Shown here in pieces: positions 5,550-60,460 of a stretch of 64,000 nucleotides of DNA. Numbering within the stretch: the stretch's first letter is position 1; each line of letters opens with the position of its first letter. The notes under the pieces are model-generated. The model made no database searches. It had not been told where the DNA came from and saw nothing but the letters and a program-made list of their open reading frames with translations. The DNA is from Cymodocea nodosa (Eukaryota > Streptophyta > Magnoliopsida > Alismatales > Cymodoceaceae), in the NCBI GenBank assembly GCA_036874045.1, contig CM072338.1, positions 23,396,501 to 23,460,500 of the forward strand, in the 5' to 3' direction. A program made the translations under genes and the position numbers.

Positions 5550-8500
5550 ATGGATTGCTGTATCTGTGGCCCTATGGCTGCAACCTACAGACCTCCAAGA
5601 AACACCATCTGCCACAGTTGCTATGAAGGAGCCAGACGGATGGACCTTTTCCTCAGAAATCTCGAGGATGGAAATGACGGCAGTAATGGTTGTAACCAAT
5701 CCAACCGGTCTCATCTCAATTCCTTCAAGGCAAGAAATTCTACTGTTTCTCATTTGCTCATCTGTTTCTATTTGGAGACTTCATTTCTGTCACGACAATT
5801 AGGAATCTGATCATCCTTCCGTTCCCATCATCATCTCAGGGACTGTCAGATGTATTCAGGTGGATGGAGAACAGGAAGGGGCTGGAGGAAGGCCTCAAGG
5901 AGAAGATTGATTTTCTTGGAGCACATTTGTTCGCATTCAGAGAAGAGATTCATACAGACATCGTTATTAAGCCAAGAACTGGCCCTCCGATTCCTGCACA
6001 CAAAGCGCTGTTGGTGAGAGTTTTAGTATTTCTCCTTTCTTTGGTAACCACAGCAAATCAAATTCATAGAACAACGCATATATTAGTTATTGCTTCGGAA
6101 ACAAGAAACCAAGTAGATTTCTCTGTGGCATAGAAAAACCGTAAGTATAGAAAACCAAACTCTAAAGAACAGTTTAGGCTCGAATTTTCTATTCTCTGTT
6201 CTAAAGCAGCTTTTTTGGAATTGGAAAACCATATAGAAGCAATGTCGTATCTACATCTTGTCGTCTTCGAATGTATGATATAGATTGGCATTCCCTACAC
6301 CTCATGAAGCCATTACTTACCTGAGTAAGAATTGGTGTTCCAGCACGTTCGGTATGATATAGGAGCAAGTGTTTTTCCTTCTGCCCATGCACAATGATTT
6401 TTCGATTAACTTAATCAAAGTAATGCATTTCAATTTTTTGCTGCTCTCCAAAATCCTGGACAAGCGGAATTCAAAAACCTAGGAGCCAATGCAAAAAAAC
6501 TCGGTCTTTCAATAAAACGCTAACATGCCCACGTTATACTTCCGCCATTACATATAGTGGTTTAGGGTTCTTTTTCGAAATCCTAAATCAATGTAGGCAT
6601 TCGAATCCTCCCTCCGGAGCAAATGAGAGGCCGAAAACCAGCACCGAGGTCGTACCTGATGAATTCGGGAACGAAGGAGAGGCCTCAACACCCCCAGGCG
6701 CCAGTGAAAAACGGATCCCTTAACCTTAGTTTCACCTCACACACCGCATCGATCCCGCTCTTCCACCCAAGCTTCCTCGTCGGAGCGCAAGACCAGGGAG
6801 AGGAGAAAGCCCTGCGCCGACCGCCTGAAGACGGCGGAGCGGTGACGCAGCAATGGGCGCCGACGGAATCGATCCTCCGTCGACCCCTTCCCGGAGGACG
6901 CGGACATGTCTGCTCGAGATCGCACCCCGAAAGGGGTGTTGGTGGTACCAGAAAGTCTTGGAGAACGAGGAAAACAGAAACTTGAGAGAAAGTATAAGAA
7001 ATTTAAAAAGATTGAAGGTGTCAGTGTATTAAAAAAATTTAAGAAATTTAGAAAATTTAAAGGTATGATTGTATATTTAAAAATAGGAAAAAATATATAT
7101 AAATTATAAATAAATAATTTTTATATTTTAATTTTTTTTAGATAATAAATAAAACTAATATTATTATAAATAAATAATTTTTATACTTTCATTCTCTTTT
7201 CTTTTATTATATATATTATTTATTTATTAATTTTTCCTTATATCGATTATCGAACCTTCACGTGTGTAAAAGAACTTATCTATATAAACTTTGTAGAAAA
7301 AACTTTTTTCTTAAGTTTTCAACCAAAATGTTTAGAAATCTAGATAACGAGTCTAAGAGGTACCTGAACACTAGAAGAAAAAAAAAATTTCCCTTACTTT
7401 CTTTTTCACTTATTTTACTCTACTTTTTTATCTACACTAACCTCTGTCTAAGGCATATTGAGCATGTTGTATAATAAATTAAAAAATTATTTTATTTTTT
7501 TTATCAATCACATTTAATCAAAATAAGTAAAAATATTATTATAATATTTCAATCGATCTGATCTCATTTCTTAAAAAGTTAACGTGACAACACTCTCTGT
7601 CTTAACTGAACCACACCCTGTCGTGTATTTCTTTCATATTTTATTCTGTCGGATAAAATCATTTTGACCATATTTGAAAACACTTAAAAACAACATGTTT
7701 ACCAAAAAGGTATTCTGAATAATACATTTTTTATTAATAATATAAGATGTTGGAGTTCAAATCAAAATTACATTTTGAGATCACACATTTAAGTCAACAA
7801 TTTGATTTGATAAAATAAGAAATCCAACCACCTTTTGTCGGAGTTACTACATTTTTAAATACCTTTAAATACTATGTTATGTTTTTCTTGTATAAACGTA
7901 AAAAGTAAAACCTAGATTGAAAAATACAATTTTCTAAACTTTTGTTACGTTTAAAAATATTTTCCAATATTTTTTAGTATTTCCTTTAAAAAATTTTATT
8001 TAGTTTATCATTCATTTGAAATAGATTTGGACCATTGTCCTTAAAAACTATGTTATAAGATATAGATATTTTATATTAACCATAGAATCCTTAAAAATAT
8101 TAATCCTTTTAAAACTACATGCTATATATATATATATATTCTTGAATATGATAGTTGATGAACACTCAAATAACTTAGTGTACATTAAGAATATCTATGT
8201 AACTGATAACAGGTAATACTTCACGAATACTCAAACTTGATATACACCAAGAATATCTATGAAGTTAAAAACTTATAAAAATAAGCTTTCTTAGGTACCT
8301 AGAAAGATAATCTCTTAGAATTTGATTTCATGTACCACATACTTTGTCTCTCAAACATTTCTAATTAGTCAAATGTACCTAAATGGTCTCATTCACTAAT
8401 TCAATCAAAAGTTTTGATAGAGTCAAGACCTACAATGTTGATACATAATTTTTAGGTAGATGCATATACTTATTGTTTGCATATGCTTAAGCATAACCAA

Positions 8501-13100: not shown

Positions 13101-16100
13101 AGGCCTAGATTTATTTTTGGTGATGGCTGGGGATGAAATTGACAGGTCCTGCACTGAAATGGAAAAACTTGTTCTTTTGCTTCACGTTGACACCATGTTG
13201 ATCACTTGTAGTATGAGGATGGAAGTTTGGTGGAAGGGAATATTGGAAGTTTAGGTTGGCAATAACAATGCATAGTAGAATTTTCATTGTTTAGGTTGGC
13301 AATAACAATGCATAGTAGAATTTTCATTGTTTATGTTGGATGCATGCAGTAGATGTGCTGAACATGCACAGAAGCACGTGGAATGTGTACAGTGGGGGGG
13401 ACACACTAATTCTTCCATTGGTGTATGAACATGCATGTTATATTAGAGTAAGTGGATATGCAAGGCACTCAGCAGCACATGTTAGGGGATCATGCTGCTA
13501 CCACAATGAATGAAGTTATAAACGTGGGTTTGTTCTCTCACTCTTTTTTTGCTTAAAACCGAAGTTCTCATTCCATCTTAAGAGAATAATTTTTTAGATT
13601 TTTAATGACTAAATGATATGTCCTTAATATATGGGTACAGGGCATTAGATTGATAGAAAGGCATATAATGATCTATGAATCTTATTATGCTCGACATTTA
13701 TCTCAAATACTTATTTCTGATAACTCTAAAATGCTCAATCACCCAGCTGACTCATCTGTGGCGTGCAGTTTGCAATTTTTTAAAGTAGGTTTTTGCATTT
13801 ACAGTGAGAAGAGGATACTGCCATTCTATACTCGGTTCCTTCTTGCATGATTTTTTAGTAATGTTTAAAGTAGGAGATCGATGAATTTTACAGGAAGAAG
13901 GAATATGGGGGTATTTTTAACACGTGGGAAAAGTGAATGGAAACAAATTGTTCGTTAGACATGGATAATTGTGCATAATGTGGTATGGTGGTGCATGGCC
14001 TGAGGGTAACTAGAGAATTTTCTCATGATGCCTGTAGGGTTGATGATGAGTTAGCTTGGACATTTGTGGAATCAAAACAGGGTGATTGGCGTGGAGGTTG
14101 TGGTGTTAAGTTTTTGGATCAGATAACTTGTCATTAAACTCGAGGATAACTTGTAACTAAGATTATGTATTTGATTCGGGCTTTTTCAGTGTTATTCCTT
14201 TTTTTGTTTCACTTTTTACTCTTAGTCAAGGTAGATGATGTCTCCTGCTATTCCTTTCTTTGTTTTAACCTTTGTTTGATTGGTCATATATTTTTTATTT
14301 TTTTGTTACATGCTGAGGGAAAATTTTGATTCTGTAAGATGGGTCTTTTTTAATGGGTTATTCTGTACAGAATCAAACAAAAAGTCCAATATATTAGTAG
14401 ATGTATATTGAAACTTAACTGCATTCACTACCCAGAAATATTTTCTCGATGCTGAATATGAAGATGAAGTTATGAATGAGGATGATAATACGGTTACTCT
14501 TGTGGATGAGGAGGGCAATGTAATACCTCCTTCTCAAAGGTACGTGATTAATTAAATCTCTCAGCACTTGTATTCCTGAATTTTGCATTACTATTTTGCT
14601 TGTTTACAGAAGATTATTTGCAAATTTCTCGGGTTCCTGTTATACAATCTTATAATGGACTCAGTTCAATAGTGCTTCTTACCTCTTGTGAAAAGTAGTG
14701 GTTTGTAATCTTAACATGGAGGAAATCTGCATAGCCTAAAAGTCATAATCATCATGCTTAAACAAAGTCTTACTCCTTGTTATTTTTCCACAGAATGTAT
14801 GTCCTTTTTTGCTATATAGTGTACCTTTATCTGAAAATCACACATGAATGCAAATTATGAAGGGAAGCTGGTTTGCTTAAGGCTGGTCGTCTGTTAATTT
14901 AGTTTTATTTTCAGTACTAAAATCTGGTGGAATACTATTTCTTCATGTCAGATTTTTTTAACGTTACTTCAGTAACTTTTACAGTTGACTTGTATGGGGC
15001 GTAAATTTTTTCTGCTTTCATTTGCATGATTTCTTGTTGTAAACTATTGTAGAACAAACAAGACAAAGAGAGTAACAAGGGTAGAGTTAAATCGTAGAGC
15101 TAGGAGAAAGGCTGTACTGAAAAAAGAGGAAGAGATGAAAAAGGTGGAAAAACTTTCCAAGGAGATTGACAGGTAATTAATTTATTTTGATCACCTTTAG
15201 GGAAGTGGTTTATTTCTTGGAGACGTGTTAATTTGCTTCTTGTTTCCATTTACAACAGCCTACCTGATATAATGAAGGAAATAGCCAAAGATGAAGAGGA
15301 AAAAAGCAAAAGACATATAAGACGTGTTTTAGCAAAACAGGAGCGGCTCAAAATTGGTCCACCTCGTCTCGGGAAGCACAAGTAATTACAGGCTTATTGG
15401 ATTTGCAAAATTTCCATTTACTGATTTTGTTAGTAGATTACTATCTTGGTCATTCCAAGATAGTGGTTACAGAGCATAATGGTTTGACAATCACAAATTG
15501 GTATCGTTTAACAATCAAAGCATAATGAGTTCATGTTCAATTATTGAACATTGAGCAGCACTCTGAGTCTCTAATTTGACTGATGCTTCTGATAGCTAGT
15601 CTCCAAAGAAATTGAATTTTTTAAGAGAATCTCTTTTCTGCTCTCCTTTTTTCCCATTCTTTTTTCTTCAAACTTATTTTTCGGTCCTCTTGTCTGATAT
15701 GATCCTTGCTTAATTGTGGACTTGCGTAAGTGTATTTTTCCACAGTGATAGTGCAAAGGAGCTAGATTGCCTAGGATGTTATTTGATCTAATAGGACTTA
15801 ATCATGTTATGCTGGTTATTAGTGTTACATCGCATATGATGGGGTTGGATGGGATCCTTTCTTATTCCATCAGTCTGTTTATTCTTAATTTTTCTATGTT
15901 GGCCCCTTTTTACAAGGGTTAAAGGCATCCAATATTCTTTATTACATTTAAAATTACAGGTTTCAGCCTGCACCACTTCAAGTTCTGTTGTCTGAGGAAA
16001 TTTCTGGATCTATAAGAAAGCTAAAGGTGAGCTATACTGTTGTCTTTGCTGTTGCATGTGAATGGTACACTTATTTCAAATACTTATACCTTGTCTTTGA

Positions 16101-26100: not shown

Positions 26101-26480
26101 GGCCGGTAATGGTAAAGTCGCAGCAACCCATTCTTTCCCAACTATAGGAATCTGACCGATGGACCTCAGGCGTGCGATCTTTGGTGAACTGGTGCCGAAA
26201 ACATCCGACTCCCTACTTCGCGAATGTGATCTGTTGTTGTTAGTTCCGAACCCCGGTCCTCAAGTGGAGACCCACCCCGTCCGGTCGTCTCGGATTTCGA
26301 AGGAGCAGGAATAGGTGGAGATGGTGACGCAGAATGAATGACAGCGTTGATGGGGCTTTGAGCGTATGTCGATATCGTACGATGATGTTCGTGGGACGGT
26401 CGAAGCTCTGCCACTTGCATGCATTCTTGTCGTCCGGTAAGAAGAGCTCTCCGGTTGTCAGAAGTTGCAGCCTCTGTATT
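26100..26480. other. Unidentified GC-richer patch
   Basis: Composition shifts to about half GC. A plus-strand frame runs MDLRRAIFGELVPKTSDSLL... from 26160 to a stop near 26313, and a second open piece (ERMSISYDDVRGTVEALPL) follows in another frame. The minus strand is also open. I recognise no family. It may be a decayed gene piece. Confidence 0.25.
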
Positions 26481-26862
26481 TTAAGAAGAAAAGGAATATC
26501 GGCAATAACTCGAAAACAGTATGCATTCACTGTATCTAGGTTCTCTACAGAAACTGATAGGTTTTTGAAATTAACAAGAATACGTGATGACCTATATTTA
26601 AATTCTGGTGGACAAAATGAAATGACATGATTTTAATCCATACAAATACTGAGAAAAAGTGAAAGTATTTACGATAAAAGGTTCAAAAACGATCGGTACA
26701 TTAACGATAGTAAATTATTTCCTGCAATGTATGTGCATCATGCTTTGTCTTGATTCGACGATCATGATAAGCTAGAAGCAGTGCCTTTCGACTTAAATCT
26801 CTCGATGCGCACTTTTCAAATCTATTAGATCTTTGAGCAATCGATGGGAGGGAATGGATTAT

Positions 26863-30448: not shown

Positions 30449-31970
30449 TGTATGCGATTTCTTTGGGCTACATATACTCTCGGGAAATGGCCCTTTCTTT
30501 CTTTCTTTTTAAGAGAAAAGGTGGATATATAATGGTAAAGAGCATCTCAGCCATATAACCGTAGTTAAGTAAAATAATATTATTATTTTTACAAAACCAA
30601 ATAAATTGAACGAAGGCGAATACAAAAGTACATCAAATTATCCGGTAAAAAATCGCGACCAAATATAAGATTTATGTCGACTGACTTCTCAAGACGACGT
30701 TGATGTTATCGTCACACTTGTAATCGTTCCAAAATGGTCGACAGTGGCAATGAACTCACGATCGATCTCATCTATTTATTTTCTACAAGGTTTTGTTATC
30801 GTCACGGGTTTTCGTTAATTTTTGATCAATATCTTGATAATAACGGATGATCTCACTGCAGACTGGAAGACTCATTTGAAAATGTTTGTATTAAATTTCA
30901 GTTGCAAATAGCGATGTCTTATTACGATTGTGATCTCAAATGAAGATGCTTCTTCTAAGTTTGATTTTTGTTCAAAAACAGGATGTTTTTACCGTTAGGC
31001 CCATGTTCTCCTGGAATCTGCAATGAGACGGACCTCCCAATCCCAAGATTAAAAGAAAAAATTTCGCAAGGTTGCTTTTAATAATAGCGATGCTTCGCCT
31101 AAATTGGACGTCAAGATCTCTCCCTTGACAAAGAATGGAAAATAAATCCAGCGCCGTTTGAGCACCACAAAGTGCCAAAGAGAGTGTTAGATAATGTAAC
31201 AATCTTACGTGAGCGGTGATGTAGTTGAATTAATATTTTATAACATTAATTGTATTTCACTGTTAATTAATATTAAGATAAAAAATATTAACGATTTATA
31301 CTACATACATATTTTTTGTAGGGATAATTGTTAGGGGCATTTTCGTACCTCCGGAGCCTAAATATTTAAAAACATTTGGCAAATGTGTTTTTTCTAACTT
31401 TAGTTAAAAACTTGCTTAAATTTTTAATTTTTTTTTTTTTTTTACACAACTTTTAGTTGTGGGTTTTCTGCTGGATCAAATCTCAGCCATACGTATTCAA
31501 ATGCATGGTTGAGATTGTCGGGAGTTATGACAATGAGTATTGTGAAGCAAGGTGTGTTGTATTTTTATAATTCGCAGCTCATGGAAGGAGAATGCTGGGT
31601 CGTGCAATCATCCCCTGCCGTCCATTCCATATCTGAAGAGATTTGTGGGAGGGAGAGGGATGATTTCAGAAGAACGATGACTGACAGACAAAAATTAAAG
31701 ATATATATATATAAATGTGTGTTCTGAGGTAGAAGGGACCTCATTCTTTCAGTATGCATATCTGAGCCTTCTCAGTTTGCTCTTGCATCTAAAATTTCAA
31801 AGCTATCAATCTACAATTTTATCATGGTGGGGAACATTATATGTATCTAATGAGGTAGCTAGATGCGCGTACCTGAATATATATGAAGATGCAGAGAGGT
31901 GCTGATCTTCCAAGTTCAGATAGATGAAATGAGGTGGAAGAAGTCTTCCATCTACCCACAAGTCAAAAAC
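30449..31970. other. Spacer downstream of MIR164
   Basis: AT-rich with a T tract at about 31426-31442. Short open frames near 31000-31200 and 31500-31730 show no recognisable similarity. Part of it may belong to the 3' end of the MIR164 primary transcript. Confidence 0.4.
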
Positions 31971-31979
31971 TACAGGCAT

Positions 31980-32094
31980 GGCGAGCATGATGGAGAAGAT
32001 GGGCACATGAAGAACCAAGAAAACCTCAACCACCGGCCGACAGCTTGAAGCTTAGACGGCAATGCACGTGCCCTGCTTCTCCATCATGCACACC
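31980..32094 (-). ncRNA. MIR164: MIR164 precursor hairpin
   Basis: The minus strand contains the conserved miR164 sequence at 32083-32063, starting TGGAGAAGCAGG and ending GCACGTGCA, on the 5' arm of a foldback. The opposite arm at 32009-31989 reads CATGTGCCCATCTTCTCCAT plus C, matching the known miR164* type. Paired with a 2-nt 3' overhang, the duplex has only two central mismatches (C9/U and A10/A) and one G-U pair. The stem continues beyond the duplex for about 11 more positions, with one mismatch and one G-U pair (GGTGTGCATGA against TCATGCTCGCC). miR164 represses NAC genes of the CUC1/CUC2/NAC1/ORE1 type, controlling organ boundaries, lateral roots and senescence. The loop is about 53 nt. 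The plus strand would not yield miR164, so orientation is clear. Which family member it is cannot be told. Confidence 0.95.
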
Positions 32095-32638
32095 TCACCT
32101 CCTTCTTCTTGTTCCTCCGGGGACCTCCCCCTCCTCCCTCTCTATCTAACCATCAATTTTGCAGAGACACCAGTGGCCTGTGGAGTGGAAGAGACCTTTG
32201 ATGGCAAGCTCCCTTACTTACAAGGCATGCCACCGACGTGCCCTTTTCTTTCCCCTCCTCCCAAAATATTTACCTTTTCGTCTGTGCGCTCCTGTTCTTC
32301 CTCTCCTTTTGTGGTTAAAGGGAAGCACGGTTCCAAGGAGAAGAGTGATGATAAGTAGCATGTGCTGGGAGGGAGGGACCTCGAAGGCTGGAAGACACCA
32401 AGCTAGCTACCTTGGAGGGACCCAACTACGCGTCATTCTTTCCACGAAACTTGCCGAGAATAATTGATTACGATTTAGATTTAAGCTTTATTTTTAGATT
32501 ATTTTCCTCATGTTAGTGGAAAAATAGCAGCGAATTTCAACGTCTATGTACATCGTCAAAAATGACAGAAATTAAATTTAAATAGTATCGTATCAATATA
32601 AATGAATTCTTTTTCAACTACAACATTCATTGTTGACA

Positions 32639-32839: not shown

Positions 32840-35570
32840 CGTATGTGTATGTGTATGTGTACGTGTGTCTGTGCCAATTAAAACCAGATAGATAAATTCA
32901 TAAAACATCATTAAAACCAGTCCAGCACGAACGAATGTCTACGTACTGAAGATAATTAAAACGATCGCATTGACTCCAATACGTATCAGAACACATGTCG
33001 CAGCACACTGACCACACCACCCAACAATCATTAGTCAGATGCAGAAGATCTAGAGATGGTTATTTGTCCAACCATCCTACATAAACGTCAAATACAAAAT
33101 AATTAAGTTTTTAACATTAATCAATCACGGTTAACCAAAGTCATCTTGTGCAATATTTGATTGTTGAAGGCCATTCCAAAAGTCCAAAGCCCAAGCCCAA
33201 CTCGGCCGTGCGAATGGTAAACCAAGAATTCCCAGAGAAGGGAAGAGGCCGCGCCACTCTTTAAAGAAACGTTGTCATCGTATAACTTCAACTTTGGACG
33301 TTCACTTATTTAACATTAAGTAATTGAATATTCTCAGAACTTACTGTTGACTACGTAAGATTCCCGGCAAATAGTCCTTTCGTAAAAACAACAATTACGA
33401 CTTTACTACATTTACCATCAAACCTCAAACCTCCTCTCACTGAAATAGGACCACTCAAGATTCCCGGCAATTCACTGACGCTTTGCAAGGTAATCTTCTA
33501 AAGCTTTTATTCCCCGGTCGTTAAAGTAAAAATAAATAAAAAAATTTAAGATTTACACTGATGGCTGTAAGCAAACAAAGATTAAGATTGAAGATGACGT
33601 ATTAAAATAGTGAAATTCGAAATCCATAAGATACTTTACGGGGGGGGGGGGGGGGGGGGGAAGATGTATAAGAAAACTTAAAATGTGGGGTTTGGGCGGA
33701 CGACAAAAAGGCTGACGAGAATCATCGATGCGGATGCGCCCGACATGGGAGTTGCCTTTGCCTCACTGTGTCGGTTTTGGCGGACGATAGTTGGCGTGGA
33801 CGCCGGCCACAACAAGTTGGTTGTTCCTTCTCGTGAATGTGTTCGCCTTAAAAGGCAGGCCTAAAGAGCGAAAACGATGCCATTCACGAGTTTTTCCCAC
33901 CCGCCCAAGTATTTTCCGTTTCTATGAACCGCTAGTCGCGTCTTTATTTTTCAACTCTAATTTTAACTTTCAAAAACAACTTGACTAATGAATTTTATGA
34001 AGTAGAAGAATCAAGAAGCAGAAAATTCTTCTACTTCGTTATGGAAGCAGAAGACAATATGACTTGAAACTAGATTCGGGTGGTCAAACGCACCTCAAAA
34101 CGATCTCGTTTAAACGGTAAAACCAATTGCAATAATTCTTGAATCTAAATCTTGGTAAATGCGGAAATCATTGTCATTATTAAAATATAAAAAAAAACAA
34201 TAATCTTTGACCCTACGCAGCACAACAAAGGATGCCAACCAGAGTCCAGCTGCCTGTGGTCCTCTGCCGTTTAAAGAGGAAAGGAGAGTGAATCTTGTTC
34301 ATGGACAGCTTAACGGCCAACCATGAGAACACCAATGGTCCTCGTGAAGATCAAAGTTTGGCAAATTGGCATTCTTGTCACGACGATACCAACATGAAAG
34401 GAAGGATGGATGGTAATGTTTGAACCATGCGGCCAGTGTTTTGCAAGGCTCCGACCAACCTTAGTGGTGTAGGTGCCTGCACATGGAACTCCAGTTTTAC
34501 TTTGTCAATTTCATCGAACAATAGCCGTCGGCCTGCTTTCCGCCCGCCTCCTGCAAAAAGAGTATCGTATAATAGTACCACTACAACCATCCATTGTACA
34601 CGGCACATTGGATAGATTAAAATGGTGGAACGTCGTACGGTTTCCCATATCATTTTTTCTAATCGAAGCTGGGAAAACCTCTCAAGGCACGCACGGTTTT
34701 ATCTTGGGATCAAAATCTCAGTGTTTCACGTTACCACACATATAACGGCATGAATCTAGTGATCGACCCATCCAGCAAGGTTAAAGAGATAATCATGCAG
34801 GTTGAAGACCACAAGCACTCCACTAAGGGAACGTTGATTCCAAAGGCATCCACTCATCTATATTTTGATAATTTCCTTGCATTTTTCGTGGTCGTGTCTC
34901 TCAGCCTTTTCCGTGATCCTCCTTCAACGGCGATCCTTATCTTCACGATAAATAAGATTGTTTTTCATTCTTTTTTCCCCTCTGGAGTATGGAAATAACC
35001 CTACCTGGCCGTCAAGCTCCTTTTTGCCGAAGTTATTTTTTGGGAAAAACTTTGAAATGATTTAAAGCGATAACCAGCATCCTGTGGTAGAAAAAAAGAA
35101 GATGAAACCGACCAAAGTATGAAGTATATTTTATCATGGCATGACCAGGCATTTCCTTATGATCATTTCTGGACAAACAGTCGAGATATTTCCATACCTA
35201 CAAAAGATTTAACAAAAAAAGATAAATAAAAAAGGCACAACCATTTTATATTTCGAGATGCCAGACTCAAACATTTTGGTTAAAAAAATAGAGAGCCGGA
35301 TTCCTGGTTGCCGGCAAAAGAACCATATATCACATTTGGACTGCTTAAAGAAAGTTTTCCCAAAAATCTTGCTGGAAGCAACTCCTGGTCCACGTACCTG
35401 TTGATTTGATTATGGAAAACCAAATAAACCTTGAATCAGGGGTACACATGGACGCGAAAATCAATGGCTGAGAAATCAAAAGGTATAGCACAAAACAACA
35501 AAAAATCTGAGAAAATTTACAACTTACTTTCTCTAAAATCTATGTCAAACAATCTTCCGAATCAACTGGA
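32840..35570. other. Gene-poor spacer between MIR164 and mS29
   Basis: No recognised gene. Contains a run of 21 G at 33640-33660 and moderately GC-rich pieces near 33690-33930 and 34400-34700. Open frames there (for example a minus-strand frame 34653-34378) have no recognised similarity. Confidence 0.4.
33640..33660. repeat. Homopolymer run of 21 G
   Basis: Twenty-one consecutive G residues lie in AT-rich DNA. Such runs are rare and length-unstable. On the plus strand it could form a G-quadruplex. An assembly artefact is also possible. Confidence 0.9.
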
Positions 35571-38500: not shown

Positions 38501-41500
38501 TGAATTCACTGAATGTAAACCAGCTATTGTACTGGATTAGTAAAAGCACAAAACAGACATTAATTTTCTTAAAATCACAATCTCTATTTTGGAAATCTTC
38601 GAACTGATACTAAATATAAAATTTCTAGATCTTGGCAGCACCTGATCAATTCCATGCAAAAAAAAAAAAAACAGCACCTGATCGATTGCAAATAAAACGG
38701 GAATGTCTTTCACCAAGGATAACTCCTTCCTTAGACGAACAACAGCCCCAACAGAAGCTTCTTTGTAGCCAACCCCAGACTGTATCAGATCGAACAGAGT
38801 AGCACCTTCGGGCAAGGCCATTAGACCACCCTTTGCAGCAGATCCAGCATCTTCCCCACCCAATAAAATAGGGTCGCTAATTTGGCACGGCAATTTCTGT
38901 AAGCTAGTACTATTGTATTTCAAGAAATCCTGCGGGCAGAAACCAATCAATAAGAAAGCAATGTTTTATGGACCTGATTGAACATTAAAACATGGTTGTA
39001 AGTTGCTTCTGGACATCACCAAAGATAAAAATAACATTTTATTTTTGTTTATTGAAGAACCTGCAAGATTTTAGAAGCCTGAAATGGCGTATCAAACAGA
39101 TTGGTATCTGGATTTCTATAAAATGAACCTCCATGGGTCCACTCCTTTGCTTCTGGAACATAAAAAACCAGCCATCCTTCACTGCGAGCCCAGTGAACAA
39201 GCATGGCAAGTGCAATACTCTTTCCACAACTAACAGGACCATCCAAAACTATTTGCCTCCGAATCTTTGGACCTAGAGAAAAGAACAAAAACAATCCAAA
39301 AAATTCTCCATGACAAAATTGATATGCTAAAAAAATTGATAGCTACATCCAATAAATTGTCAAGAATTAAAAGCTTTGATGTAATAATGGCCACAAATTG
39401 GTAGACAGAAAGACACAGAATTCAAAACAGCAACTAGGAAACAATAAATAATTGTCATCAATTGAAACCTTTTCTTGAACATTATACAATTTTTGAACAG
39501 TAAAAATGATAAATTAATTGTTTTTAATATAAAAAACTTTTCCAAGAAGTCTGATTGCAGTATGGGGACATAAGCTCCAAAAATATATTACTGATGTGAC
39601 AAAAAAATTTCAAAGAAAATGGAATGCTTAAGGAGTTTTTGATGGTTTTCTACCTGGGAAGTCTCCATGATTCTCTACAACCAAATTATTAGGCCACTAT
39701 GCACCAACTATGATGATTCTTTCGATATTTTTCTTTGTGCACCATTTTAATTACTACATCTGCAAATGTAATGTTATAGATTATTGTTACTCTTAATGCA
39801 TACTTTTAAGGTTCCCATTCAAATATATATTTCTTTATTTTTAATTATATATTCTATATATATATACACATTTAATAATACTTATGCATAGTTTTAGCTC
39901 TATTATTTCTTAAAAACATTCAAACACATAAATAATTAAGATAACACCAACAACTGAGGTGTAATAATGCTAATATGTTTATTTCATTCATATATGTAAT
40001 TATATATTTCAATAATGTGTATATTTTAGTAGTATTAAATCAAAAAATTTATATTTAAGCTTTTTTGCAAGGAAAGGCATTGAAACTTAAAAACAATTAA
40101 ATGAATCAGACAAAAGATCCACTCAATCAAGGCAATGCAAGGGGAGCTAATAAGATGTGAACAATTCACTCCTTGCCACCTAGGTGCTCACCTTAAAAAG
40201 CATGGATAAATTTGAGACCATCCCTGATTTCCATCCGTAATCAACTTTACAAGATCTTACAAAGAAATGGAAGTGTATGTGAAATTGATATGACTCTAAG
40301 AAGTGGGATAACCTATCTATCTTTCCATTACATCCTTCTATGTTGAAAGCTGCATAGAGGCATAGAGCAGGACGTTTCACTTGACCTCCATGCCATTGGT
40401 GAAGTCAGAAAAACTTAAAGGATGGGTCATGAAGTAGCACTAAAAAGTAAATTACTTGTAAAACAACATGCATTTGGTAATAAAAATAATTACTAACAAG
40501 TATAAATTAAAATGATAAATAATAATAGCTTCACCCACATTGCAAAATCTCATGAAGAGATCATGTAATGTAAGAAAAAATGCATGTTCGAAATCCCACA
40601 GTGATGTTTAAGTCAGTGAGGTTAGGGCATTATGACAGGCAAAGGAGAATGTGAAGACTTGTTGGCTTGAAGATTTGAGGTAACAGTGATGATTGATAAT
40701 TTAAAGGTAACCAATTGGAGCAAGGCCAACAAAGTGTGACAGGAAATTATTTGGGGCTTTTAGTTTTAAGATTTGATTTTGATTCCTTGAAGAAGCCGAT
40801 TACACTTGAATTGCAGAATTATTAGGTGTGAGATTTACATGTAAATTCAAATTATTCTACCTATTAGTATAATTTATTTCTTTAGTTATTGGTTTACTTT
40901 TGTTGTTAAGTTTCATGTACAAGGACTATAGGTAGGTCATGTAATTTTCCCAAATATTACAACTTAACACATATACGTATATAATTAGGGCTATTTCGAA
41001 AATGGGGTGGATCATATGACCCACCCTCCTATAATGTAAATCTGCTATTGCCAGATGCTAACGAAGTGTGGAACAGATATTTTTCCTAACAATGTACAGG
41101 ACATTGTGTAAATGATGTCCGTCGGTGATACCTTATCTGAGACCACTTATCGCTTCCACCTGAGAAACAAATGTTTTACCTGTTGTCATCATGAGGAGAG
41201 ATCTGACAAAATTGGAATGACACAGATGCTTTTTCTAACGTTAAAGACATTAAGGTTATGACTCAAGGACAAGTTGATCTATAATATCAATAAAAAACAA
41301 ATTTCAATATTTAAATCTAATAATTAAGGATGAAATATAGGTGAGAGGAGCAATTCAAATGAGAAGAAATTGTGGTTCAGTGGTTTTTTCTTTGAGCGAG
41401 TATTTTCGGTGGCTTTCAATAAAATGCATCCGATTCACTCATTAACAGGATCTTCGACTAATTTCATGAACATCTTTTTTCTAATTGGCGAAGATATGAA

Positions 41501-42266: not shown

Positions 42267-43356
42267 TTTTCGTTTTCGTCTTCCCTCCGCTACGAAAACA
42301 ATTGTACTGTGGTGTTGGACGAGAAGCTGCGAGCAAGAAGGGTTTTTCTTGATTGAGAGGGTTTTCTGCCAAAGGATTTAATAGATAAAAGGGGGAAGAG
42401 TGTAACGTTAAATCGGTCGAATTTTTTTTTTATCGACATAATAAATTTAATCATAAATAATAACATAAAATTCGACATCATATCTATACTTATATTTTGG
42501 AAAAGTCGATCTTTATCGTAGGGTGAAGTTTTGAAGCGGTGCTTGGTTACATTTCTGCACATTAAAATATTTTTCGGTAGAGTACCTGAGTGTTATAACA
42601 TCGTGTAGAAATAAATAAATGAAGCAAGTAATATTAACTCAAAGCTAGAGTATTCACAGATAAAGAGTCCATGATAATTTTGGTAACACATGAGAAGATA
42701 TAGAATCGTTAGGATCGATGATGACATTCTTAGCCAGCAACAAATAAGTAGAAGATGATAATATGTCAGGTAAAAAATTTTAAATATAAAAGGACGTGAA
42801 AAATGAAAAGAGTTCAAGGAGACAGAAACAGCTGCTGATTTCAGCAACTCTTTAAAATAATCTTAAATGAGAGAGGAGTTGCTCTTTGTGTGTTTGCTTG
42901 GACTCGCGGAAACTTCGAGAAAATAAAGTTCAAAATAAAAGCATCTTTAACTAACTATTGATTCATATTCCGATTTATTGCAGTCAATTTAATAACCATG
43001 CTTTTCATTTTCGTTTCGTTTAACTTAAAAATACTCCATTTTTCTTGCAAAGTTAAAAATTTCTCACTGATTTTGAATCTAATTTTTTTTTTACGGATTT
43101 CAAATTTGCGATTAAAGAAATGGACGCACTGTTTGTGTGATTGCACAATTTTATATATAAATATTACAAAAACAGTTACATAAAATACCTAAAAATGATG
43201 ATAACTCCACGAGGCACGTTTCCAACAAACTCGGACGGTGGACTCCACGCAATCGCCGGTGTAATTATTCATCTGCCCATCCCGTTCTCTGTAATTATAT
43301 ATAAACACCCCCCCGTCCTCCTCCCTTCTCCCTCACGTCTTCCCTTCCATCGGTCC
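42267..43356. promoter_or_regulatory. Divergent promoter region of mS29 and the WUN1-like gene
   Basis: About 1.1 kb separates the two oppositely directed start codons. The middle is AT-rich. On the plus side TATATATAA at 43296-43304 sits 53 bp before the WUN1-like ATG, a good core-promoter match. No equally clear TATA box was seen for mS29. Confidence 0.5.
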
Positions 43357-43896
43357 ATGGAGGCTTCCTCACCGGAACTGGCAAACACCATGGCGTCCCC
43401 CACCCTGCCGGATACCGAGCTGGAGGAGGAACGAAACAAGTGGGTGGTCGGAACCCTGTATGAGGCCCTGAACGCCCGCGACGTGGAGACGGTGCACCGC
43501 CTGCTGATCCAGGACATCGAGTGGTGGTTCCATGGCCCGCCATCCCGACAGCACATGATGCGGCTGCTCACCGGCCTCGACGAGAGCTTCGTGTTCTCCC
43601 CCTCCTCCATCGCCGCCTTCGGTTGCCTCGTGGTCGTCGAGGGCTCCGCCGGAACAGGGTCCGTGTTCTGGGTCCACGTCTGGACGGTGGGCGCGGATGG
43701 CATAATCACTCAGGTCAGGGAGTACTTCAACACCTCCCTCACCGTAACCAGGCTCGACCCTGTTTCTCCTCCTCCTTCTGCCTCGCCTTCGACCTCCGGC
43801 TCGAGATCGTCCCGGAGCTGCGTGCCGCTGTGGCAGAGCAAGCTCGCCCGTGCCCAGGCGGGGAAGTCCGTTCCCGGCTTTGTTCTGGCCATCTAA
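43357..43896 (+). CDS. Wound-induced protein 1-like (SnoaL/NTF2-like fold)
   Basis: A single-exon gene of 179 residues. The core VGTLYEALNARDVETVHRLL, DIEWWFHGPPSRQHMMRLLT, FSPSSIAAFGCLVVVEG, VFWVHVWTVGADGIITQVRE and YFNTSLTVTRL is the signature of the plant wound-induced protein 1 / SAG20 family, small NTF2-like proteins of unknown biochemical activity. Members are induced by wounding, pathogens or senescence. The first 25 residues are Ser/Pro-rich and acidic and not conserved. The C-terminus has a Ser/Pro linker before a conserved CVPLWQSKLAR...GKSVPGFVLAI tail. The ATG follows a TATA box at 43296-43304. The open frame extends further upstream to 43141, but that part overlaps the TATA box and is AT-rich, so the ATG at 43357 is preferred; a second in-frame ATG is at 43390. 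The coding region is very GC-rich. Confidence 0.9.
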   Translation: MEASSPELANTMASPTLPDTELEEERNKWVVGTLYEALNARDVETVHRLLIQDIEWWFHGPPSRQHMMRLLTGLDESFVFSPSSIAAFGCLVVVEGSAGTGSVFWVHVWTVGADGIITQVREYFNTSLTVTRLDPVSPPPSASPSTSGSRSSRSCVPLWQSKLARAQAGKSVPGFVLAI

Positions 43897-46800
43897 TTAT
43901 ATACACATACACACGCATATAATTCAATAACATTGTCTTCTGGAGTATGGCTGTTGGGGTTTAAGATTGACGACTATCTGCGTTTAATTTGGTCGTCGGT
44001 GCTTGATTTCGACGGACGTCGTCAGCGTCGTCGACCGTCGACGTTGGCCGGAAGAGGAGGAGGAGACGATACGCGTGTCGTCCGTCGTGACGTACATTTG
44101 GCGTCCGATTATTAATCGCTCCAAAATATTTAAAACAAATAGAGATAATTTTTAAATTATTTATTAAAAATTACGAAAAAAGATTTGAATTTATGTAATT
44201 TAAAAGAATATAAACGAAAATACAACGATAGATTCAACAAAAAAACATAATAGGAGCAGGGGACGTAGAAGGAGCAAAGCTTTTTTATAATAATAGTGTT
44301 TTAATATTTTTGGCATTAAAATCTTAAGAAAAAAAAAAACAAATATTATTGTTATATTTAACTGAAGGATGCACTGGGGTGCGTCCAAACCGAAAAAAAT
44401 AAAAACCTTAAGATATTATATATATCTGTATATTCTCCAATATTTCTTAAATTACTTTTTTTAACAAAAACTTGCCTAATTTATGAATTAATTCTATAAA
44501 ATACAAAAATTTCAACCAGAGCTCACTCTGAGATCCAAGAGTGATGAGAAAATCCAAATCATGGACAAGCCTTTGTAATATTGTTTGATGAAAACCCAAG
44601 TTCTACGGTTGAAGGTAACGAAACATTTAAAGGTATATTTTAGTGGTATTAAAAAACTTTCGTTATTAATGTACATTTGAATCTTTAAATTCGTATTTAC
44701 GATTGAATTTCTTAACTTAATATTTTTTTTTTAAAAAAAAAAAGCAATGAGATCCAGCACAGCCTTCCACTTTGCAGAACCCGATCGACCGCATGCTTTT
44801 CTTACAGAGACCAGCCGCCGGCCGCCGGTCGCCGGTGGCAGAATATATAGGAATGGAGAGAGATGGTGGTTCTGGGCACGGAAGAGGATGAAGTGTCGTC
44901 CGAGCTGGCAGTCGTCGGAGGAGAAAAAGTTTCCACGACCTCAAAAAATCCTGCTTTCAATGAACATCAACTGAACTTCAAAAGTTCTTAAACTCGGGGG
45001 CGGGGCAATTATAAAAATTTCATATATTATCATATAGCAAACATTATAAAAATCTACAGTGCTTATAAATAAATAAGGGAGAAAATATCTTATTCTTTGA
45101 AAAGGTAGATCTGGCACTTGATGTTTATTTTCATGAGGTGTGGTTTCACGATGAAGTTGTTATTCGTTTGCCAAATATCGGTACATTAATTGAGATAGAA
45201 AATGGTTGAAATTAAAAAAGATGTTTCTTTCTAGCGGATATTGTTAAAACCTGGTTATGAAATCAAATGGAATATCGTTAATGATGTAATCGTCCAACTT
45301 TTCCAAAACCATGAAATTTCATCAAGACAATTTTTTTGTTGTTGGTCAATTGTACTTTTGATATATCAAAATTGTAAACTCTTAATTTTAATTATTTTTA
45401 TCACATAAATTGAAATTTCCATATTTGCCCCTGGCTACAACTCACACATCATACAACGGTTGAGCCGAAATGTATTTATTTTCTTCTTTTTTGGTGATGA
45501 TGCATTCGTTTACTTGGAATATTATTACCATGCTTCCTACAGCATTGCACTTATTTTTCACTAATTATTTTAAAACAAACTTACATGGATTCTAATCTTA
45601 ACAAAATCAAGATTTGATTTTCACTTTAAAAATCAATACCAGTCCCTTTGATGGCGACCCATTCCAGAAAAAACTATCTTTTGACTGAAATCCGAGAATT
45701 GTTCATGCTACGTCTCTTCGGACACACCTGATAAAATTTGATGGGACGTTCATAATCAAATCTGTCTGTACCATTGTTTAAAACGTGAACTGAATCGTCC
45801 GTGTCGGTTGCGTTGCCGTTCGGTAGTCTTGTTTTACCTCTCTCTCTCTCTGTTACGTACTTTATGTGCACTTTATTACACTTACTTTTGTTCTTAAACA
45901 CTTAAATCATATAATACTAGTGAACGTTTAAGATCAATTTCGATAAACCGTTGAAAGGGGCCGGTCTATTTCACTGTTTCTTGTAACGAGATAGAAATTT
46001 TAACTAATCCGAATATTAGAATTCTTAAGTGTCCATCACAAAAGAGAATCTCTACCATATTATTTTCAGTGTCGACCTATTAGCGAGATACAATCTTAGT
46101 TCGATTGGAAAGACAAAAAATCCCACCATTGCCACAAACGAGTAAGGTCCTCTTCGACATGCGTAGTTCCAGCTGAAGTATGGATTCCTGGGGTATATTT
46201 TAAATCTACCAATTACAGAGAGAAGTCTCCACAATCAAAATTTTAACCAATTATAAGATTTCCGTGCTGCTTATTAAAATTTAGAGAAATTTCAATCATT
46301 TAATTTACTTAGGAATCTGAACTAAAAATGATTTTACATAAAGTTCAATAATACCTAAAATTGACCTAACAATAGTCACTTCATAAAATGTGCATAATCT
46401 CAACTGTGCAAAATTTAAAAATTCCAAAATCTAACCAAAAAAGGGCCAAATGCTATGAATATCTTTATTTTTGAATTAAATAAAAGTACGTAAGTATGCC
46501 ACGCTTAATGATAATTCTCTACAAACTTCATGACGAGTCGTTTCTATGGAACTAATCTGGACTATGAAAAGGTCCATTTTTTTTTTTTTTTTCACTTCTT
46601 TTAAATTTTATGCAGATTACACTCTAGGCAACTCGGTCCTCACTTGTGTTGTGGAAGACTGACTACATTTGAATTCTAGCGTCTCTTAAGCTGTCAATAG
46701 ACTGAAATAACAATTTGCTGGAAACGTGTGATAGGAAAATGTGGTTGACAACTCGATAGGAAAATGTGGTTGACAACTCCATGTATTAAATGTTAATAGA

Positions 46801-47535: not shown

Positions 47536-50500
47536 TCATTTGTCATTTTTTGACTCAGTCACAGCACACAATGCCCTCCAGACAGGAATTAGCATCTTAA
47601 CTGGAATCCTTGTATTCTGCAATGTATAGACAGTAGTTAAGATCTATTCTGTCAGGTAGATGACAGCACCATTGTCTTATAAGCAAATACTGATAATAGA
47701 ATCTTACTTCAAAAACTAACATAAGTTCATTCTCATCACGTAGAACAAGGGCCAGACTCCAGTAACAGGTAACCGGAGTAACACATTCATTCAGCACAGG
47801 CTTGAGAATCTTCCCCGTGGATACAAAGCGCCTTCTGACTTTGCCACTTACAAAAATTGCAAAAAAAAAAGAAGAGACACTTTAATCTGTCACTTAAAGC
47901 TGCAGTATTTACATTATAATTTGCATATCACAGGCAACCAACAAAAAGAAAAGCGTTTTAAGGCATTGGTCGAGATTAGAGGCGCAAAACAGATTGAATG
48001 TCATATTTGTATTTGTTTGCATTTTTCAAATACAAATATATGTCAGATCTGAAAAAATAAAATTATATTTGAAATCAATTCAGATAAAAATACTTTTTAG
48101 ATATTAGCAAATATCAAACAAGAATAGAGATGAGTACAAATAATTGAAATTAATATATTAGAATATATATCAAACAAATTTTGAATCGATAATATTTTAG
48201 AATGAACAAATATCGAAACTGCATACTATATTTGTAATAGTTTTCAATTTGTGAATACTTATATAATATATATGTGTCAAAATGTGATTCTCTTTATATG
48301 AAAAAGATAAAGTTAAGAACCAAATCTAAGTATAAATTTAATTTCATCAATAAAAAAAATTAATAATCAATCATGTAATATTATATCAATTAACCTTAAT
48401 TTAGTATATTTATTTGAAATGATCATAATAAAATTCGATTATAATAGTAGTATAATAAATATGTCTTAAATTAACATGATTATGGTATTGGTGGAGTGAT
48501 TAAGGCTTCTAAAGATCAATATCCATCTTCGGATTCGTATAGTTGATATCTGAAATTGGAAAATTTCAAACTGTACCTTGATAGACTAGATTTGTATTGC
48601 ATTCCTATCTCAGACACATTCAAATTAAAATTATATATAACAACTAATACAAGTAATAAGATATAACAATATGATTTTTTCTAGAAGTAATAGTATAATG
48701 CAATAATGCTTCAAAATTATTGAACTGAGATTCTAGCTTGACAGTATCAAATAGACATCAGATTCAAGCATATTCTCCTTAAGCTTCAGATTCTCGTTAA
48801 AATAATATCATACTCGATTCTGATATGCTCCCTCTTTTCAGTAATAATTGCAAAACCTTTAGGTGAAACAAATGATCAAACAGGATAATTTAAAAAAGCA
48901 AAACCAAATGGCAGTTCTAGAGGACAGAAAGAGAATGGAAACACCAGCCCAAAAAAAGTGGTACCAAAAAGTAACAAAGGGGACCATAACTCCGTAAGTA
49001 GCAAACTAAGAGGACTTTGTCCTGAAATCTCTAGCCTATTCTGTGTATTCCAAACAAAGATTCTTAAAACTAGAAAATGCAGGATCATATGGTTCCAGCG
49101 ATTGCTAAAGGTAGAGGATATAAAGATCTAGATTTGACTCAAAAACCAGTCCTGCCAGAATGTCAAATGTCAACCAAGGAACCTCCCAGATGTGATCAAA
49201 CATTTGAACCGCTAACCACACTCTTGTCACAGGCTGTAGAGATCAAGGTTCGACCCTTTGTACAGCCCAAACAGATGACCTGGTCTTGCTGAATTAACTA
49301 GGAACCGTCCAATCCTGTGGACAAGCTGACTCAACTACAAACCTCCCAGATTTTGAGATTCTTTTCCCAGGCATGGGGAAAAAAATCGTGCACAGCAAAA
49401 GTGGGTAGCTAGAATATGACAACTAGAAGAAAGCAACACATGTGTGTTATCTTGCATAACGAAGCCTGTCTGGATCTGCGATTCTTCTTCACAAGGCAAA
49501 AGAAATGTCTGTAATTCCCCAGAAAAAGAGAATATTGGAAAATATAATGCAGAGGAACAGAGAAATTTAGGTAGCTTCTCCTATAGCATAATGCAATTTG
49601 TTACCCAAAGCATTTAAAGTATTTTTTTAAAAAATAAACCTTTCTAGAATATGATAGCCAGCTAAGGCAAGGTACCTCATCATATGGCGTTGCTGCCAAA
49701 ATAACCTTGATAATATAATTATATACAATATAATCCTGCATTTATTCATCCATGCCCTCCTCCTCTTTCTATGTTCTGCTTGTTGTGCCACTATATCACC
49801 AAGAGCAACCAAATCATTGGCAAGGCGTACAAATGGATGTATCACCAAGAGCAACCAAATCATTGGCAAGGTGTACAAATGGATGTACATCATTTATGGG
49901 GGATTTTCTGTTTTGACACATAATCTATTGCAATGTAGAAAGCCCAAAATTTGAGATAGAGGGTCATTAAGCAGTTTTTGTGGGTGAAACTCATTAAGAA
50001 AATGATAAAAGCACAATTGTGATTTTTTCTGAACACTGCTTAGGGACACAAATAGAGCAGAAGTCACTTTAGATTCAGATCTATGGTCCTCCTGGGCACA
50101 GGGAGAAATCTTCTTTCGTCTATGAACTTATTTCGATTGGGCTTCTTTGGAACCATCCATGTGGTCCTTGGGGACCTCAACTACATTCGGTGCCTAGAGG
50201 ATAGATCTATGGGATGGAAACTCACAGCTGAGAAGAGGCAATTATTTGATTGGATTGACAACAATGCCAATGCCCTACTTGACCTTCCAGTTGCTAGACA
50301 CTCCTTCACTTGGTCTAATCTTCAAGATACTCCTACTCTCTGGATTAGATTTGGTCTTAGTGGACAGGAATCGGGAGTCAGCACACCCAAAAGTGGTGGT
50401 TAAGAGACTTTCTTGGGCAATGTCAGACCGCTCACCAGTTAGCAGCAGGACATCAACTTGAATAAACAAAGAAACAATACCATTGCATATATCCAGTGGA

Positions 50501-56599: not shown

Positions 56600-58380
56600 T
56601 CGCGCCCACATGTCCTCTACCACATTTGGTTTCGCCCATAATCAAGTGGGCCGATAACCCAACCCATAAACAACAAACCAATAAATTAAATTATAATATT
56701 GTTACATAAAATTTTTTCCCCAATTATTTTGATTTATTTTCAATTAATTATTTAATTTGTTTAATATTTCTTACAATTTTTAACTATATATTTTTAAGTC
56801 TACCTTTACCTTTTTAAATTTCTTTTACTATACTGATACATTTCTTCAAGTAACTCAACTTATCGTCACATGTGCGTCTCTATTTAGACCTATTTTAATT
56901 GAAATTCAAGTATTTTTCATATTAAAAAATTTAAAGAAAAATTCATTTATTTTATATTAACAAATAATCTAATGACGAAAATGGGTATATTTTGATATTA
57001 ACATTCTATCCATAACATAATATTGTGAAAAATTTTAATATTAATTTTTTAATAACAATATTATTATTACATTGTTATTTTAATTCCATGTTAGCATGAC
57101 AAATAACATTTGTTCATTTAATATTTTGCATTGTATTAATATTTTAAATTAATTTTAATCACATGAAAATAGTTAATTTATAGAGAAAATATCAAACAGG
57201 CAAGCATATAAACCTTTATAAATATTTTCAAATATGCTTTGGTATTAATAACTTTATCTTTGAATGGTTCAACTACCCTGCTTTTAACTAGAATAACTCA
57301 AACAAATTTAATGTTGGAGAGTAGCTCTTAAAGTTAAAATTACGAAATTAAAAGTATTACTTGTTTTGTAATAAATCAATTTGAAACAGTGAAGTAAAAA
57401 CATATCTAAATTTGGGAATTACCCTTAACATGGAAAAAAAGAGAAAAAGAAAAAAAAAAGAACTAGAAGAAAATGAAAGAGGAAGGAGAGAAAAATAATA
57501 ATAATGACAACGTGTAGTTTTTATTTTTTATCATTTGTTAATAACATTTAAATTCATAAATAAACTTAAAATAATGTCAACATGTGAGGTGAAATAATAC
57601 TAATATATATGTGTTAATAATATGCATGATTATATATTTTATTAAAAAAGTTTATATGTAAATTTCTGTAAGGAAAAATATTTTAAGATGTTAGAAATAT
57701 GTATATTTTAAATTAAATAAATTTAAATTTAAAAATAAACATTAATCTCTGCTAGTCTTTTTCTAAGGAACAAAATAATTATTTTATAGTTAAAAACAGC
57801 TTCAGTGGAAAGTGTCTAAGTAGTTGTTACACAGCTACTTTAATAAATAATATGAATAAATATTATTTATTTAAATATAAAGTTTAAAACTGTTCCAATT
57901 AAAAATAAAACAATTAAAACGGTCAAACAAACAGGACCTAATTTCCAAAGATAAGCGGAAGAAATTGAACAAAAAGGTGGACAATAATTCCTTTCCACAT
58001 CCTTTTATTTCTGCTTTCCTTCTCTTGAATTGTTGTATCCTACGGTACGATGCTTGTAGAATAATCGAACAGGAGAATATAATCTAGTAGTAGATAACAA
58101 ATTAGTGGAAGACACGTTCGTAAATAAAGGTTGTACACGTAAATAACTTATTTATAGTGGAAAATTAAATTGATCAAATAAATGGTAAATTTCTATAAAG
58201 ATTGAAAACGTAAGGTCATAATCATAAATTCACACGTTCAGAAGCAGAATTTTCTCTCCACTAGAGAAAAACATCTCTCAAACATCTTTTATATTATCTT
58301 TGAAGGGAATCGGCATTGACAATAATAATTATTAGCTCTCTCGATCAGAGCAGCATTTGAATTCGAATCCTCGGCGGAAG
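56600..58380. other. AT-rich intergenic region upstream of the PPR gene
   Basis: No genes recognised. It includes a purine-rich tract near 57425-57500, a partial copy of the dispersed repeat at 57540-57700, and presumably the PPR promoter. Confidence 0.5.
57540..57700 (+). repeat. Dispersed AT-rich repeat, partial copy 4
   Basis: It contains ATTCATAAATAAACTTAAAA, GAGGTGAAATAATACTAATA and TCTGTAAGGAAAAATATTTT in family order, but lacks the CCTAGGTG-type ends. Confidence 0.5.
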
Positions 58381-58382
58381 AC

Positions 58383-58391
58383 ATGGGATGA
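58383..58391 (+). promoter_or_regulatory. Minimal uORF overlapping the PPR start codon
   Basis: The string ATGGGATGA contains an upstream ATG-GGA-TGA reading frame (Met-Gly-stop) whose stop overlaps the main ATG at 58388 by two bases. Ribosomes starting at the first ATG would terminate exactly on the PPR start codon, so expression could depend on leaky scanning or reinitiation. Its use is inferred; the transcript start is unknown. Confidence 0.5.
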
Positions 58392-60460
58392 CTTCTCCAT
58401 CCCTCCCGCTCTCGAAGGCCGTGGAGCTGAAGAACCTCATCCTCCTCCCCTGCCGTGGCGAGGAATGCGGAACTCTGAGACGACGTCTCACGTCCGTCCA
58501 CGCTCGCCTCATCCGCCTTGGCCTCACCCAGGACCAGTACCTTGTCAATGCTATCCTCAAGTCCTACTTCGACTTGGGCAGCCCGGATTCCGCTACCGCT
58601 CTCTTCCGCTCCACCCGAGATCCCAACGTCCATCTCTGGAACACAATGATTCGCGGGTTCGCCGCCGTCGACCGCTTCGTGGACGTGGTTCGTTTCTACC
58701 GTCTCATGCGTCAGGATGGTCTGTTACCGAACGAATTCACCTTTCCTTTCGTTACGAAGTCGTGTACTAGGATTAAGGACCTTGCAATGGGCAAGAAGAT
58801 ACATACCCTTGTTGTGAAATCAGGTTTTTCCGAGAATTCATACATTGCGACTGGGTTGGTTTGTTTATACTCGAAGTGTGGGTTGTTGGATCATGCGCAG
58901 AAGTTGTTTGACGAAATGAGTGAAAGTAATGTGGTCTCATGGAACGCAATTATTGGTGGGTATATGGACGAGGGGAGATTGGAAGAAGCCTTGGGTTTGT
59001 CTTGGAAGTTTTTGGATATGGATCTGAAACCTGATAGTTTCGTTCTTGTTCGGATGTTGACAGCTTGCTCCCGATCGGGGGATTTGAAAACTGGTGAACG
59101 GTTGTGTGGATACATACAAGGCAAAGATATGGGTGGGAATGTTTACGTGGCTACTGCTATTGTTGATATGTATGTCAAGTGTGGAAGCATGGAGAAAGCT
59201 TGTCACATCTTTGATAGGATGGTCGAGAGGGATGAGATAACCTGGAACACCATGGTTACAGGGTATGCTTCGAATGGTCTTCCGAAGGAGGCATTGACAC
59301 TGTTCTCACGGATGCAGGAGGAAAGTATGCATCCCGATTGCTATACCGTGGTTGGAGTTCTTTCGGCTTGTGCAAAGCTAGGAGCTTTGGACTATGGTGT
59401 CAAAGTGAGTTGTTTAGTTGGAAGAGATGAATTTCTTTATAACCCAGTTTTGGGCACAGCATTGATTGACATGTATGTAAAATGCGGGAGCCTTTCTAGA
59501 GCATGGGCGATTTTTGAGGCAATGCGTGAGAGAGATATTGTGGTTTGGAATGCAATGATATCTGGACTTGCAATGAATGGTCATGGCCGACTGTCCTTTG
59601 CACTTTTTGCTCAAATAGAACAGTTGGGGATACTACCAAGTGGGAACACTTTTATAGGTCTTCTGTGTAGTTGCGCTCATACTGGTTTAGTTGATGATGG
59701 GCGTCAGTATTTTGACAGCATGAGCAAGGTTTACTCATTGATTCCCAGGGTAGAGCATTATGGATGTATGGTTGACATGCTAGGCCGGGCAGGCTTGTTA
59801 GAAGAAGCTCATCAGTTTATCAAACAAATGCCAATGGAGGCTAATGCCGTTATCTGGGGCTCTCTCCTCAGTGGTTGTAGAACATATCGTGATACCCATC
59901 TTGCAGAACATGTATTAAGGCAGCTAATTGTGCTAGAACCCCAAAATTCAGGAAATTATGTCCTTTTGTCAAACCTGTACTCGTCAGTTGGCAGATGGGA
60001 GGATTCTGCACAACTTAGACTAATGATGAAAGAAAAGATGGTACAAAAGATCCCTGGTTGTAGTTGGATTGAAGTGAATGGCCTGGTCCATGAGTTCGTC
60101 GTGGGAGATCGTTCTCACCCATCCAGTGAGAAAATATATCTGAAGCTTGATGAGCTTGAGCAGAAACTGAAAGTATTTGGATACATGCCATCTACAGAGG
60201 TAGTATTGTTTGACATAGAAGAGGAGGAAAAGGAGCATTCTCTCGGACAACACAGTGAAAAGCTTGCCATTGCATTCGGTCTTATAAGCTTGCCACAGGG
60301 TGAACCTATTCGAGTTGTGAAAAATCTACGAGTGTGTAGAGACTGCCACACTGCTATAAAACTCATGTCGAAAATCACACAGCGAGAAATTATTGTTAGA
60401 GATAATAACAGGTTCCATGGATTTATAGATGGTTCATGCTCATGTAATGACTATTGGTAA
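58388..60460 (+). CDS. Pentatricopeptide repeat protein, PLS-E/E+-DYW class
   Basis: An intronless 690-residue protein, as usual for this family. Residues about 30-480 are a run of P, L and S-type PPR motifs (for example NVHLWNTMIRGFA, NVVSWNAIIGGYM, EITWNTMVTGYASNGLPKEA, IVVWNAMISGLAMNG, VEHYGCMVDMLGRAGLLEEA). Then come E and E+ motifs (NYVLLSNLYSSVGRWEDSAQ, KIPGCSWIEVNG) and a complete C-terminal DYW deaminase domain. That domain carries the zinc and catalytic signature H622-S-E624, C650-R-D-C653, then H677 and C684-S-C686, ending in DYW. Position 678, commonly His in the FHHF motif, is Gly here. Such proteins edit specific cytidines to uridine in mitochondrial or plastid RNA. The closest Arabidopsis protein I recall is At3g08820 (PCMP-H84). 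The target site and organelle are not evident. A two-codon uORF abuts the start. Confidence 0.95.
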   Translation: MTSPSLPLSKAVELKNLILLPCRGEECGTLRRRLTSVHARLIRLGLTQDQYLVNAILKSYFDLGSPDSATALFRSTRDPNVHLWNTMIRGFAAVDRFVDVVRFYRLMRQDGLLPNEFTFPFVTKSCTRIKDLAMGKKIHTLVVKSGFSENSYIATGLVCLYSKCGLLDHAQKLFDEMSESNVVSWNAIIGGYMDEGRLEEALGLSWKFLDMDLKPDSFVLVRMLTACSRSGDLKTGERLCGYIQGKDMGGNVYVATAIVDMYVKCGSMEKACHIFDRMVERDEITWNTMVTGYASNGLPKEALTLFSRMQEESMHPDCYTVVGVLSACAKLGALDYGVKVSCLVGRDEFLYNPVLGTALIDMYVKCGSLSRAWAIFEAMRERDIVVWNAMISGLAMNGHGRLSFALFAQIEQLGILPSGNTFIGLLCSCAHTGLVDDGRQYFDSMSKVYSLIPRVEHYGCMVDMLGRAGLLEEAHQFIKQMPMEANAVIWGSLLSGCRTYRDTHLAEHVLRQLIVLEPQNSGNYVLLSNLYSSVGRWEDSAQLRLMMKEKMVQKIPGCSWIEVNGLVHEFVVGDRSHPSSEKIYLKLDELEQKLKVFGYMPSTEVVLFDIEEEEKEHSLGQHSEKLAIAFGLISLPQGEPIRVVKNLRVCRDCHTAIKLMSKITQREIIVRDNNRFHGFIDGSCSCNDYW

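Follow-up and report, generated by a model that had tools for sequence, protein, structure and literature searches.

The exact 21-nucleotide sequence of miR164, UGGAGAAGCAGGGCACGUGCA, lies on the minus strand of the window, the stretch of 64,000 nucleotides of Cymodocea nodosa DNA analyzed here (G000:C6:23396501-23460500, within a genome of 374.6 Mb in 28 contigs). With a probability of about 96%, this locus is a minus-strand MIR164 gene, one of four exact copies in the genome, whose non-coding transcript would be cut by DCL1 to yield a miRNA guiding cleavage of a few NAC mRNAs. This identity, proposed earlier by a sequence-only reading, is supported by the concordance of arm, strand, duplex geometry, like-built paralogues and predicted in-frame sites in NAC genes. 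The locus is an ordinary further copy of a thoroughly known miRNA family. The gene content of the DNA is of plant type, with NAC genes in the genome and, in the window, a gene for a DYW-type pentatricopeptide repeat (PPR) protein and a WI12 gene.

In plants, a miRNA and its star strand are expected on one foldback, pairing with few mismatches and leaving 2-nt 3' overhangs. The miR164 sequence was the sole match in the window when up to three mismatches were allowed, and none was obtained in 100 shuffles. Folding of the minus strand from 31960 to 32110 gave −74.2 kcal/mol (z −7.68), a value equalled by none of 200 dinucleotide shuffles (mean −46.1, s.d. 3.7), and the good foldback described earlier was thus recovered, with a stem extending slightly past the interval 31980–32094. 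The plus strand folded less well, at −50.0 kcal/mol (z −4.37), 24 kcal/mol less stable. Sequence match and minus-strand fold agreed in placing miR164 on the 5' arm. The star was derived from the fold by taking the bases facing miRNA positions 19 and 1 and adding 2 nt, so that the 2-nt 3' overhangs are given by construction and the length of 21 nt is an outcome; its coordinates on the opposite arm reproduced those proposed from the letters. The duplex has a single symmetric 2×2 internal loop and no asymmetric bulge: miRNA positions 9–10 face two unpaired bases, which are the two central mismatches already noticed, and a G-U pair at position 17 had gone unmentioned. Below the duplex, a lower stem of 17 nt containing two 1×1 mismatches ends in an open loop. 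Coordinates are collected in Table 1.

Table 1. Features of the MIR164 locus and its upstream region (window positions)
Feature	Position	Strand	Basis
MIR164 precursor foldback including 17-nt lower stem	about 31974..32100	−	Fold, stem anatomy
miR164, 21 nt, 5' arm	32063..32083	−	Exact match
miR164*, 21 nt, 3' arm	31989..32009	−	Computed from fold; 20/21 letters equal to MIMAT0015138
53-nt terminal loop region, divergent between paralogues	32010..32062	−	Comparison of copies
Upstream block common to L002, 79% over 52 columns	32158..32207	−	Alignment
Second block, 2.3 kb upstream, common to L002 region, 75% over 68 columns	34353..34416	−	Alignment
WI12-type gene, open frame	43141..43896	+	Pfam PF07107, E 3.8e-31

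The genome contains four copies of the exact 21-mer (the window locus, L001, L002 and L004), against 0.00017 expected in random sequence of equal base frequencies. All four lie on the 5' arm of a foldback with a 21-nt star, an identical 2×2 loop at positions 9–10 and a lower stem ending at 17 nt, with pairing at 13 to 15 of 17 positions. Two types of star were found, CAUGUGC[C/U]CAUCUUCUCCAUC in the window, L002 and L004, and CACGUGCUCCCCUUCUCCAGC in L001. Members of the trio agree in the miRNA at 21/21 positions and in the star at 20–21/21, while the loops share 43 of 83, 32 of 53 and 33 of 83 positions in pairwise comparisons (counts from an aligner with free end gaps; figures of the same alignment for the 200-nt flanks were not used). 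This pattern of a constant miRNA and star with a divergent loop is, judged from sequence, the signature of a miRNA precursor. L001 shares with the window locus the mature miRNA, the 2×2 internal loop and the lower stem ending at 17 nt, but its star matches at 16/21 positions only, its loop measures 35 nt instead of 53, and out to about 10 kb from the miRNA the match between both regions is confined to a stretch of 24 bases around it. On contig C5, about 383 kb separates L001 from L002, which represent the two types.

Comparison with the part of a published miR164 family list available in PMC6567921 placed both types among listed entries. The mature sequence of the window equals MIMAT0000185, listed there as miR164, at 21/21 positions, in a comparison made on mature sequences alone. 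MIMAT0015138 agrees with the stars of the window and L002 at 20/21 positions and with that of L004 at 19/21, in keeping with the earlier assignment of the opposite arm as a miR164*-type sequence, and MIMAT0015319 agrees with the L001 star at 20/21. The occurrence of two star types both in this genome and among the listed entries suggests an old split. In a search of literature text, no occurrence of the full-length star letters was found; a 16-letter star core was found in the portion of PMC6567921 retrieved.

The control of NAC genes by miR164, invoked in the sequence-only reading, was assessed by a genome-wide search for the miR164 complement with an A facing the last miRNA base and up to three mismatches. 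Ten places were retrieved, versus four for a reversed control pattern; they comprised the four MIR164 genes, four NAC genes with putative target sites, and two places elsewhere with worse penalties. The sites in NAC genes (L005, L006, L020 and L021, on contigs C2, C16, C15 and C21) have a match to the NAM domain on their own strand, 0.3 to 2.4 kb upstream, the NAM search having listed at least 113 matching segments, which are segments and not genes. All four are read in the same codon phase, as PHVSCFSN, EQVPCFSS, DHVSCFST and ERVPCFSS (HVSCFS or VPCFS), and share an open frame with a W-V/I-x-C-R-V motif, which marks the end of the NAC region; they lie downstream of the NAC domain. Under a penalty scheme for target sites, they scored 2.0 (L005), 2.0 (L006), 3.0 (L020) and 2.5 (L021). 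This list covers sites with up to three mismatches and may be incomplete. L005 and L006 had also been retrieved as miR164-like sequences with two mismatches, and were discarded as miRNA genes on being recognized as NAC target sites read on the opposite strand. L022 and L023 (three mismatches) were rejected as NAC targets, having no NAC motif, no listed NAM match nearby, and penalties of 4.5 and 6.0.

Precursors of miR164 are processed from base to loop. According to the passages of PMC8688358 consulted, base-to-loop processing begins at an internal bulge 15–17 bp below the duplex, and 14 families, miR164 included, are processed in a conserved mode, which these passages leave unnamed for miR164. 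The lower stem of 17 nt in the window falls within this range, and its recurrence in all four copies fits base-to-loop Dicer processing. A non-coding primary RNA would be transcribed from the minus strand; judging from the stem anatomy, DCL1 would first cut at the duplex base, about 17 nt up from an internal loop, and then again about 21 nt further on. By its 5' U, and as is general for such miRNAs, miR164 would be loaded into AGO1 and would target a few NAC mRNAs for cleavage at the sites found downstream of the NAC domain. For Arabidopsis MIR164C, a mismatch near the second cut is reported in PMC7577975 to reduce miR164 output. Searches for a TATA motif, in the form used, returned none within 561 nt upstream of the window miRNA or within 800 nt upstream of that of L002.

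The surroundings of the gene had been described as gene-poor; among the open reading frames scanned (14 of the 35 of at least 120 aa, and three of the 29 of at least 70 aa overlapping 26–38 kb), no clear Pfam match lies nearer than the WI12 gene. The nearest matches among those frames are weak and under the cut-off, one lectin-like (26240–26632) and one DAP3-like (38537–38965). The window further contains a DYW-type PPR gene as a single open frame of 699 aa on the plus strand (58361–60460), and near-perfect short tandem repeats at 13249–13339 (period 40), 46730–46779 (period 25) and 49794–49887 (period 46).

The WI12 gene is situated 11 kb upstream of MIR164, in divergent orientation. A paralogue with 66% identity is found on C5, likewise divergent, about 43 kb upstream of L002, and a third relative (57%) is located on C2, away from any MIR164 gene found. 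Window and L002 have in common two upstream non-coding blocks, one next to the stem and one 2.3 kb upstream, with their order kept. The first probably belongs to the primary transcript or to its promoter; the second is a possible regulatory element. Shared blocks together with a divergent WI12 gene are what would be expected of an old segmental duplication. The gene is a member of the paralogue trio, in which the window and L002 copies likely arose by segmental or whole-genome duplication. WI12 is the one gene on which collinearity between both regions is based, together with short non-coding blocks. A genome search with the 2.3-kb upstream block retrieved the window's own copy only, without that of L002, at E 0.001, and no copies of the BTB and DAP3-like neighbour genes were found near other MIR164 genes, which gives no support for collinearity. 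For L004, in the 20 kb read around it, the DNA match to the window is limited to the hairpin, and an origin by segmental or whole-genome duplication is only plausible.

Other resemblances were noted between the window and the regions compared. A PPR-like frame near L004 has 19% identity with the window PPR gene and was not counted as collinearity, the PPR repeat family being large. A match of the L001 region to window positions 6958–7441 (561 columns) was rejected as collinearity since this segment is a dispersed repeat, with at least 52 matching pieces in the genome including its own, the others being 69–86% identical (best 40 of 162 candidates scored). The L005 region has a short match to positions 2529–2614. 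Between the WI12 paralogue and L002, at about C5:23183700-23187800 (L014–L015), frames judged by eye to resemble those of a Copia-type retrotransposon were observed.

The near-identical star of the trio and the upstream blocks shared by the window and L002 raise the possibility that star strands from precursors of this type have a target of their own and that the paralogues were retained for different expression domains, an idea that we consider unlikely. It is also conceivable, though quite improbable, that the window locus is a silent paralogue left over after duplication, intact in sequence and no longer transcribed; such a loss would be tolerable with three other copies carrying the identical mature sequence, but in comparison with L002 the loop has diverged, whereas the star, the lower stem and an upstream block have been kept, a pattern pointing to continued selection on processing.

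The locus was also scored with the Rfam model of the family, RF00647. The sequence-only reading had anticipated that protein-oriented gene prediction would overlook MIR164, a fair judgement, and an Rfam scan of the window at gathering scores returned no match either. RF00647 scored 29.1 bits on the minus strand and 31.2 bits on the plus strand, short of its gathering score of 64, with full-length matches over model positions 1–68 on both. With relaxed thresholds, 14 matches were obtained over 301 bases: besides MIR164 on both strands, these were 12 weak ones with E values of 0.079 or higher. In a genome-wide search in which the best 63 of 36,482 candidates were scored, none of these exceeded the cut-off. 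The best was L001, with 61.7 bits antisense versus 38.7 sense, still under 64; L004 reached 35.3 bits antisense with no sense match listed, and L002 was absent among the matches listed. The strand opposite miR164 was thus the better-scoring one at all three MIR164 loci among the matches listed, including the window locus (31989–32085). At a loose threshold, RF00647 also matched in five of 14 control genomes, never over the cut-off.

The slight preference of RF00647 for the plus strand, and a plus-strand open frame of 100 aa (32056–32358) containing the miR164 complement, could be taken to place the function on the plus strand, in the form of an antisense hairpin or of a target transcript in antisense. 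This reading is highly improbable: the plus-strand fold is much the weaker, the miR164 listed as MIMAT0000185 in PMC6567921 is the minus-strand sequence, and the preference itself is explained by the model, whose consensus 3' arm equals the miR164 reverse complement over 19 letters and whose 5' arm departs from miR164 at three of 19. RF00647 seems to be modelled on the strand antisense to the precursor, and its gathering score is the detection threshold of such a short, apparently antisense model, with no bearing as a biological feature of the family. No relevant title was present among the matches listed in a literature search on strand errors in Rfam microRNA models. A chance inverted repeat or transposon-derived hairpin would account for the symmetric arms and nothing more, and is extremely improbable given the excess of exact 21-mers over expectation, the restriction of exact copies found to four, the absence of overlap between the window's tandem arrays and MIR164, and a conservation pattern that is that of a miRNA.

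Rfam at curated thresholds thus misses the window MIR164 gene, and at lower thresholds assigns the better score to the wrong strand; a correctly stranded locus, its paralogues and four candidate NAC targets are given here for the Cymodocea nodosa genome. miR164 acts in organ boundaries through CUC genes. By analogy with other flowering plants, in Cymodocea nodosa it very probably lowers a few NAC developmental regulators.
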